Origin: SAR202 cluster bacterium
GTDB lineage: Bacteria > Chloroflexota > Dehalococcoidia > Lucifugimonadales > Lucifugimonadaceae
Assembly: GCA_008373165.1 (NCBI GenBank)
Contig: RQOU01000058.1
Span: forward strand, 1-51,651
DNA: 51,651 nt
Reading direction: 5' to 3'
The translations under genes and the position numbers were made by a program. Positions 967 to 3,710 of this stretch are shown piece by piece; the first letter of the stretch is position 1, and every line of letters begins with the position of its first letter. Below the pieces are notes generated by a model, which searched no databases, was not told the DNA's origin, and saw only the letters and a list, made by a program, of their open reading frames with translations.

Positions 967-1467
967 CTAATTAGCCTCGACGATTTCTAACTCCTTTGTA
1001 ATGTTTATAGATTTATAAATACTTTTATAAACAGGGCATGATTCCGGATGCAGATTAAATGCCCGTTGGATAGCGTCCTTTTTCTCTGATAATAAGTCGG
1101 ATGGGACCTTCAAAACGTAACTCACATGAACTCGTTTAATAACGAGAACCCCACGGTCTTTTTCTAACTCGCCCACCGACTCTGAATACAACTTACCGGA
1201 ATCAGCTGGAATCCCGCGGGCCTCAAGGGCGCCGCCAAAAGTTCCAGTCATTCACCCCGCGGCAGCTGCGATTACATAATCCAATGTTGTCGTATAGGCC
1301 TCATGGACATCATTGTCGACGCCATAATGCTGAGCAACTTCACTATGCACTCCAAACATAACTGGATCGTCATTTGCCGGCACAAACGCACGCCTTATGG
1401 GGCCTTTGAGACGCTCGATACGAACATGTGATCGATATACAACAGGATCATGAGTATTTTCCGGCAA
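967..1467 (-). CDS. OsmC/Ohr-like peroxiredoxin with in-frame TGA, candidate selenoprotein
   Basis: Two adjacent same-frame segments (71 and 94 codons) are separated only by TGA at 1252-1254. Read through, they give one 166-residue OsmC-family protein. OsmC/Ohr proteins reduce organic hydroperoxides with a peroxidatic Cys at the start of a helix and a second Cys downstream. Here the first segment ends in DYVIAAAAG, the TGA follows as residue 72, and MTGTFGGALEARGIP comes next. The TGA therefore sits exactly where the family has its peroxidatic Cys. The second Cys is present as HPESCPVY (Cys144). Translation starts at TTG 1467, seven bases after AAGGAG. A hairpin follows the TGA immediately (separate entry). 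I interpret residue 72 as selenocysteine. The alternatives are a Cys-to-stop mutation or a sequencing error. No selA, selB or tRNA-Sec gene lies in the window. Confidence 0.82.
1206..1247 (-). promoter_or_regulatory. Putative bacterial SECIS hairpin just downstream of the in-frame TGA
   Basis: On the mRNA strand a stem begins five bases after TGA with CUGGAA (1247-1242), pairing with UUCCAG (1211-1206). Inside, a U-A and three U-G pairs, then GCGG/CCGC and GCC/GGC, continue the stem with three single-base bulges. The apical loop is CUUGA (1227-1223). The loop starts 25 bases after the TGA, inside the spacing known for bacterial SECIS elements (about 16-37). The loop has a G, but at its fourth position, whereas known elements usually have it in the first two. 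Pairing was done by hand; no energy was computed. Confidence 0.55.
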
Positions 1468-2590: not shown

Positions 2591-3598
2591 CTATGGTCCT
2601 TTTGTGACCCATGCTTGTTTGCGCGGCTCGCCAATCGATTGGAGGAGAGCCGTGATATAGCCATAACAGAAAGCAAATGCAGTACCTTGTGGATCGTCAC
2701 CACTGATGTGCGGCACGTGGTCTGGCATCAACATGTATTTATAGCCAACTTCTTGATAAACCTTTATCGTCTCTGCAAAGTCGATGCTTCCTTCATCAGG
2801 AAACGACTCCATAAAATCTAATTTATGTCCACGAATATTACGAAAATGAACATTGAAAATCTTTTCTCGCGTGCCAAACCAGCGAATTACGTCAGCTATC
2901 TCCTCTCCCGGATCATCTAACATTTCCGTGACAGTACCCTGACAAAAATTCAACCCGTGATAGGGGCTTTCGTGCATTTGAACAAACTTTTTCATCCCCT
3001 CAACCGTACCCAATAGACGAGTCACGCCCATATAACCATCGGGAGTGAAAGGGTCATGAGGATGACATGCCATACGAACTTTCGCTGATTCCGCTGCAGG
3101 AACCGTCCTTTCAAGAAAATAATCAATACGCTCCCAGTTCTCATCTACACCGACAACACCTGCTATACCTGGTGGTGCATCTTGATCCATCTTGGCCCAC
3201 CTAAAAGTCGAGTTACTGGATCCCCCTCGGCCTGGCTCGCGTTCAGAACGTGGAATACCAATAATGTTCATGTTGTACTTGACTGCCGGGATCCCTACCT
3301 CGCCGCACATACGTATGATGTTTTGGATGGACTCAATTTCGCGATCTCGCTCAGGACTTTTACCAAGCATTATGTTTGGTGACTGAGATCTTTCCAGTGG
3401 GGTCGATGAAAGAGGAATCTGGACCATATCTAACTCAATTCCATATGAATTCAGCTTTTCCTTATGACGAGCAAGATCATCTTTAGTCCAGTCGTGTGGA
3501 TTGCCGGCAGGGTCTGAACAGACATTGACGACGCCAAGTTGCGCCCATTGCTCAAAATCTGAGTCGTTACGCGCTCCCACCTGTGTTCCAACATACAT
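2591..3598 (-). CDS. Mannonate dehydratase-like (UxuA family) TIM-barrel enzyme, copy 2
   Basis: A 335-residue tandem paralog of the downstream gene, roughly four-fifths identical by eye and nearly identical over the last 130 residues. It has the same motifs: ACHPHDP, LNFCQGT, VHFRNIRGHK and LMPDHVP. I start it at ATG 3598 (MYVGTQ), which matches the paralog start and lies seven bases after AGAGG. A TTG fifteen bases upstream would overlap that ribosome site. The likely role is dehydration of mannonate or a similar aldonic acid to a 2-keto-3-deoxy acid. This fits the KdgK-like kinase at the far end of the window. Glycerol kinase lies upstream on the same strand. Confidence 0.83.
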   Translation of the reverse strand: MYVGTQVGARNDSDFEQWAQLGVVNVCSDPAGNPHDWTKDDLARHKEKLNSYGIELDMVQIPLSSTPLERSQSPNIMLGKSPERDREIESIQNIIRMCGEVGIPAVKYNMNIIGIPRSEREPGRGGSSNSTFRWAKMDQDAPPGIAGVVGVDENWERIDYFLERTVPAAESAKVRMACHPHDPFTPDGYMGVTRLLGTVEGMKKFVQMHESPYHGLNFCQGTVTEMLDDPGEEIADVIRWFGTREKIFNVHFRNIRGHKLDFMESFPDEGSIDFAETIKVYQEVGYKYMLMPDHVPHISGDDPQGTAFAFCYGYITALLQSIGEPRKQAWVTKGP

Positions 3599-3605
3599 AT
3601 GATTT

Positions 3606-3611
3606 CCTCTC
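3606..3611 (-). promoter_or_regulatory. Shine-Dalgarno site selecting ATG 3598
   Basis: GAGAGG on the minus strand lies seven bases before ATG 3598. It overlaps the alternative upstream TTG, so the shorter start is preferred. Confidence 0.55.
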
Positions 3612-3710
3612 AATCTTCGAGTAGCCTAAAACTGCCGGCAGGTTAGCATTTGTAAGTCGTTTTCGGTGCCTATGAGACACACCAATCTGGAATATTATGA
3701 CCCATGTAAA

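Follow-up and report, generated by a model that had tools for sequence, protein, structure and literature searches.

A gene in the window (by which we mean the whole 51,651-nucleotide stretch of SAR202 cluster DNA that was analyzed) is almost certainly a genuine selenoprotein gene, in which the UGA at 1252-1254 is read as selenocysteine (Sec) and whose product has a predicted OsmC/Ohr fold. The gene, here called Sec-OsmC, lies on the minus strand at 970-1467 (166 codons, with a TTG start at 1465-1467 and a TAG stop at 967-969), and a likely ribosome-binding site, gaaggagt, is located 5' of the start at 1474-1481. The original prediction held that two adjacent frames are joined in frame by a single TGA. 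We confirmed that these two apparent gene fragments are one gene: the minus-strand frame is continuous, and the TGA at codon 72 is its sole interruption. The joined protein reads AAAAG-U-MTGTFGGALEARG around Sec72 and contains a single Cys, at residue 144. When the window was scanned for frames joined by one TGA, with at least 45 codons per side and 120 in all, a longer ORF covered at least half of each pair with just two exceptions; of these two, only the Sec-OsmC pair was free of any overlap. The joined frame is not a chance occurrence, because relatives keep the TGA.

Against the OsmC family profile PF02566 (cut-off 27.5 bits), the joined product scored 37 bits; the downstream piece alone remained below the cut-off at 22.1 bits, and the upstream piece alone gave no match. 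The source genome (85.3% complete) yielded no PF02566 match other than Sec-OsmC at an E limit of 0.001. Its score of 21.4 bits against the OsmC subfamily TIGR03562 (NCBIfam) did not reach the cut-off of 85.8. An AlphaFold model had a pLDDT of 89.9 and a pTM of 0.80, and with this model Foldseek returned 64 PDB chains with E-values of at most 0.001; the best 50 are OsmC, OsmC-like or Ohr proteins, apart from a few entries that carry generic names (such as 1ml8, 2egt and 2ql8). Among solved structures, a profile search with an E limit of 0.01 matched only Ta0195 and YhfA (0.0006 and 0.0099), and in the profile alignment Sec72 and Cys144 fall on both Cys of each. Thus, the TGA does occupy the peroxidatic Cys position, as had been proposed, since residue 72 aligns with the first Cys of these two proteins. 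The resolving Cys that had been placed downstream is likewise conserved: Cys144 (codon 1036-1038, motif ESCP), the candidate resolving residue, aligns with the second Cys. Residue 72 and Cys144-Pro145 do not vary among the 25 rows of alignment A2, which range from 92 to 31% in their identity with the window protein. The predicted fold and the two conserved redox residues both fit membership in PF02566. Sec-OsmC resembles Ohr/OsmC proteins in fold, in size, and in having its redox residues in the Ta0195/YhfA columns. Unlike them, it has Sec in place of the peroxidatic Cys and forms a separate branch in the tree of sampled rows; proteins of the YhfA/Ta0195 type are Cys forms.

Just upstream of the gene, also on the minus strand, are two tandem, similar genes for UxuA/xylose-isomerase-like TIM barrels (1508-2518 and 2591-3613). 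A UxuA-like TIM barrel also adjoins the Sec-OsmC gene at two other loci (L035 and L043). Elsewhere the neighbors are a prephenate dehydratase (L040) or an aminotransferase and RibD_C (L053). Among the nine proteins scanned, we found no neighbor common to these groups, and the neighborhood therefore gave no functional hint.

In Ohr/OsmC proteins, as stated in PMC4069020, an organic hydroperoxide oxidizes the peroxidatic Cys; this residue then pairs with a C-terminal Cys in a disulfide, which lipoylated proteins reduce. The position of Cys144, the modeled fold, and the alignment fit a putative Sec/Cys version of this cycle. The product would then be an OsmC/Ohr-fold thiol peroxidase with Sec72 as the peroxidatic and Cys144 as the resolving residue. 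The Sec72 selenolate would reduce an (organic) hydroperoxide to the alcohol, the resulting selenenic acid would combine with Cys144 to form a selenenylsulfide, and a cellular dithiol, either a lipoylated protein or thioredoxin, would reduce the Sec72-Cys144 bond. By analogy with Ohr/OsmC we infer a peroxide substrate and such a reductant, and a peroxide-reducing activity of Sec-OsmC is probable. Another view accepts Sec insertion and differs on the activity only: the protein might be a Sec/Cys redox enzyme on the OsmC scaffold that is not a hydroperoxidase. We consider this rather unlikely, although the solved-structure sequence matches are the uncharacterized Ta0195 and YhfA and not Ohr, an OsmC/Ohr-related protein with no measurable thiol peroxidase activity is described in PMC4069020, and the varying neighbors offer no guidance; against it, both redox residues are invariant in A2 and fall in the Cys columns of Ta0195 and YhfA.

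To place the TGA among relatives, we searched 393 genomes of the class with the joined protein (36 with a match) and 400 genomes of the phylum with the 25-row alignment (39 with a match, four of them shared with the class set). The union comprised 71 Chloroflexota genomes with a family match. A TGA was present at the exact Sec codon in 66 of the 71 (35/36 in the class and 31/35 outside it), with frames that are otherwise open and a protein that is conserved in nearly all. Two of these copies are incomplete, one having lost the frame 3' of the site (G465) and the other being without the upstream part (G031). In one genome (G722, locus L094), the orthologue has Cys at the Sec codon and is 40% identical to the window protein, with which it aligns at both redox residues. 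The in-frame UGA at the redox position is thus either conserved or exchanged for Cys, the pattern by which selenoprotein genes are recognized, and the Cys/TGA exchange at residue 72 for which the original prediction proposed looking was found in this one orthologue.

The window TGA is directly followed by ATG (TGAATG), and one might imagine two translationally coupled proteins, the first stopping at the TGA and the second restarting at the adjoining ATG. The codon that follows was compared in 66 distinct stretches, obtained from 72 TGA loci by removing one with N and merging five duplicates; that this number equals the number of TGA genomes is a coincidence. This codon is ATG in 39 of the 66, CTG, CTC or CTT in 26, and TTG in one. 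Furthermore, both pieces belong to one OsmC domain, and the Cys orthologue is one continuous frame. Re-initiation after the TGA was therefore rejected as very improbable.

We judged it still more improbable that the gene is a pseudogene or contains a sequencing error, with TGA standing in place of TGC, TGT or TGG. Copies of the family do decay. The one genome of the window's genus with a damaged copy (G374) holds only a broken remnant with TAA codons; in another (G498) the copy is in two pieces ~2.2 kb apart, the first of which ends in TAG; and a third (G658:C49, locus L095) has TGG at the Sec codon and no recognizable N-terminal part, and its copy is probably decaying. The site itself, or a position next to it, is TGG in one case and TAG in another. 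Against this stands the TGA at the same codon in the large majority of matched genomes, including near relatives from independent assemblies. All five named loci from metagenome-assembled genomes (SAR202 cluster, Chloroflexi and Dehalococcoidia) have the TGA, and two of them have identities of 92 and 90% with the window protein, which argues that the TGA is not a read error. With relatives keeping the TGA in mostly open frames, this explanation was rejected. The concern that close relatives might have disrupted frames on either side applies to the remnant in G374; frames are otherwise open in nearly all TGA carriers. The match in one further genome (G732) is a distant Cys paralogue.

Two genomes have two Sec-OsmC copies each, G637 (L086 and L111) and G670 (L077 and L112). 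The second G670 copy may be stray sequence, because it has long exact stretches in common with locus L089 of G652 (9/15 tested 200-mers).

The window comes from a 1.94-Mb draft genome of 138 contigs, in which all four components of the Sec machinery named in the original prediction were found: selA (379.8 bits, above the cut-off, the gene being cut by a contig end), selB and selD, both above their cut-offs, and a tRNA-Sec with the anticodon UCA. We infer that SelB and tRNA-Sec, aided by a stem-loop downstream, would decode the UGA at 1252-1254 as Sec. An organism-wide reading of TGA as Trp or another amino acid, which has the open frame and nothing else in its favor, is of negligible probability and was rejected, since TGA serves as an ordinary stop for 12 of the 46 long non-overlapping ORFs of the window (at least 150 codons), the codon lies where the family has its catalytic Cys and is replaced by a Cys codon in one orthologue, and the UCA tRNA-Sec is present together with selA, selB and selD. 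The selD gene of the source genome (L023, G000:C94) itself has one in-frame TGA near the N-terminus (CAG-TGA-AGK, that is, CAG-U-AGK), and it is therefore likely a selenoprotein.

Within the class, selA was detected in 257 of 393 genomes: in 34/36 of the Sec-OsmC carriers versus 223/357 of the non-carriers (one-sided Fisher p 2.3e-5, a value that ignores kinship). Outside the class, 33 of 35 carriers have selA. A selA match was absent from four of the 71 matched genomes (G023, G031, G477, and G732, the genome of the distant paralogue). G722, with Cys, and G658, with TGG, both retain selA, indicating that the Sec codon was not lost in step with the machinery.

We also looked for an RNA signal after the UGA, using tests of codon conservation and of folding where the original prediction had suggested a bSECIS predictor. 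In group A, the window's group (18 sequences), synonymous codon identity computed for codons +1 to +14 was 0.58, compared with 0.39 in the rest of the gene (p 0.0001 by permutation), so that codon choice is constrained there. The 16 sequences of group B gave 0.74 versus 0.68, which is not significant (p 0.16). Single-sequence folds were more stable than synonymous shuffles by only about one s.d. (mean z -1.0 for group A and -1.3 for group B, and -1.05 for the window). Consensus folding of the 66 distinct stretches gave energies of -2.3 for one group (38 stretches) and -4.85 for the other (28 stretches), in each case below all 300 synonymous resamplings; for all 66 jointly the energy was tiny, -0.31, and still below all 300, although this null ignores kinship and so flatters the result. 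Consensus folding revealed no strong hairpin common to all 66 stretches.

A recurrent helix begins 25 bases 3' of the UGA; it comprises at most six pairs and encloses a loop of five bases. In group T, all six pairs are present in 26 of the 26 stretches outside the window genus and g7 (a genus of the same family); the null mean here is 5.27 of 6, and thus the helix is partly set by the protein. In group Y (28 stretches), the mean is 5.0 of 6 pairs compared to a null mean of 3.96 and a null maximum of 4.5. One position of the group-Y helix occurs as G-C, G-U, C-G and A-U pairs, and another is paired in only 13 of the 28. With the window genus and g7 set aside, loop positions 1-2 are UG in 54 of 54 stretches; as the two bases are part of a Leu/Met codon, however, the protein partly accounts for this. 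In the window genus and g7 (12 stretches), the hairpin is shifted, and the recurrent helix is not above chance: on average 4.25 of its 6 pairs are present, against a null of 3.7 with a maximum of 4.42.

In the window itself, the predicted bSECIS-like stem-loop 3' of the UGA lies at 1216-1235 on the minus strand and consists of four plus three pairs with one bulge; its apical loop is CUUGA, and the 22 bases folded give -12.2 kcal/mol. PMC1088965 names a small, G-containing apical loop as the feature of a bSECIS. The window hairpin is shifted and bulged and is not a textbook bSECIS, and a search of the locus (900-1560) against Rfam gave no match at E up to 1. We conclude that a SECIS in the window is likely, not proven.

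Sec-containing OsmC-like proteins are a kind of selenoprotein that had already been predicted. The 2005 report on the Sargasso Sea lists three sequences with the motif UxxT (PMC1088965), the 2008 report on GOS lists five (PMC2398784), and such proteins appear in the lists of two reviews (PMC13188914, PMC9312934); the statement in the original prediction that marine surveys had reported them was correct. Sec-OsmC resembles these proteins, as they are described there, in belonging to the OsmC family, in a predicted Sec at the redox Cys, in a likely bSECIS-like stem-loop, and in the existence of Cys homologues. It differs in numbers and apparently in motif: the published proteins have UxxT and are few, whereas the large Chloroflexota clade described here has U[ML]xG, in most cases UxxGT. 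All 25 rows of A2 and all 66 stretches have G at residue +3, so that UxxT as published, if counted in the same way, is not matched; residue +4 is T in all 66 stretches except L101, where it is S. A title search, with most subscription journals outside its scope, found no paper on Sec-OsmC of SAR202, Dehalococcoidia or Chloroflexi.

What is unusual here, judging from the sequences, is that the family is almost entirely Sec, with Sec as the usual form. A tree built from 56 rows grouped the 35 Sec rows with the Cys orthologue in a single clade (100/99), with long-branch warnings that include the branch of the Cys orthologue. At least six further Sec sequences of this class (L113-L118, in G084, G357, G276, G327, G239 and G099) have the TGA at the peroxidatic Cys within the motif LG[TS]UTxxT and are nested among the Cys forms of another subgroup; this lineage may be larger. 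Because these sequences sit among Cys forms, apart from the main Sec clade, the tree suggests that Sec arose at least twice among OsmC proteins. Both the origins and the direction of Sec/Cys change are provisional. The chances are about even, in our view, that the Chloroflexota clade, which spans several families, arose and was kept as OsmC-fold selenoenzymes distinct from the UxxT group, with Sec ancestral and Cys a rare reversion, and that OsmC proteins became Sec proteins at least twice in the phylum.

In dozens of Chloroflexota genomes, to judge from the 66 carriers found, the Sec-OsmC gene would probably be split or truncated by standard annotation. The clade could serve as a test bed for the contribution of Sec to the Ohr/OsmC mechanism, because a natural Cys orthologue exists in G722. 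These findings suggest that, in SAR202-type and related lineages, selenium-based redox chemistry on an OsmC scaffold is an established trait and not an oddity of a few metagenome reads. Finally, we observed a single OsmC-like frame on a very long branch with one TGA (L119, G027:C96; YVG-TGA-LSVIL), which could be a third Sec form or a product of chance.
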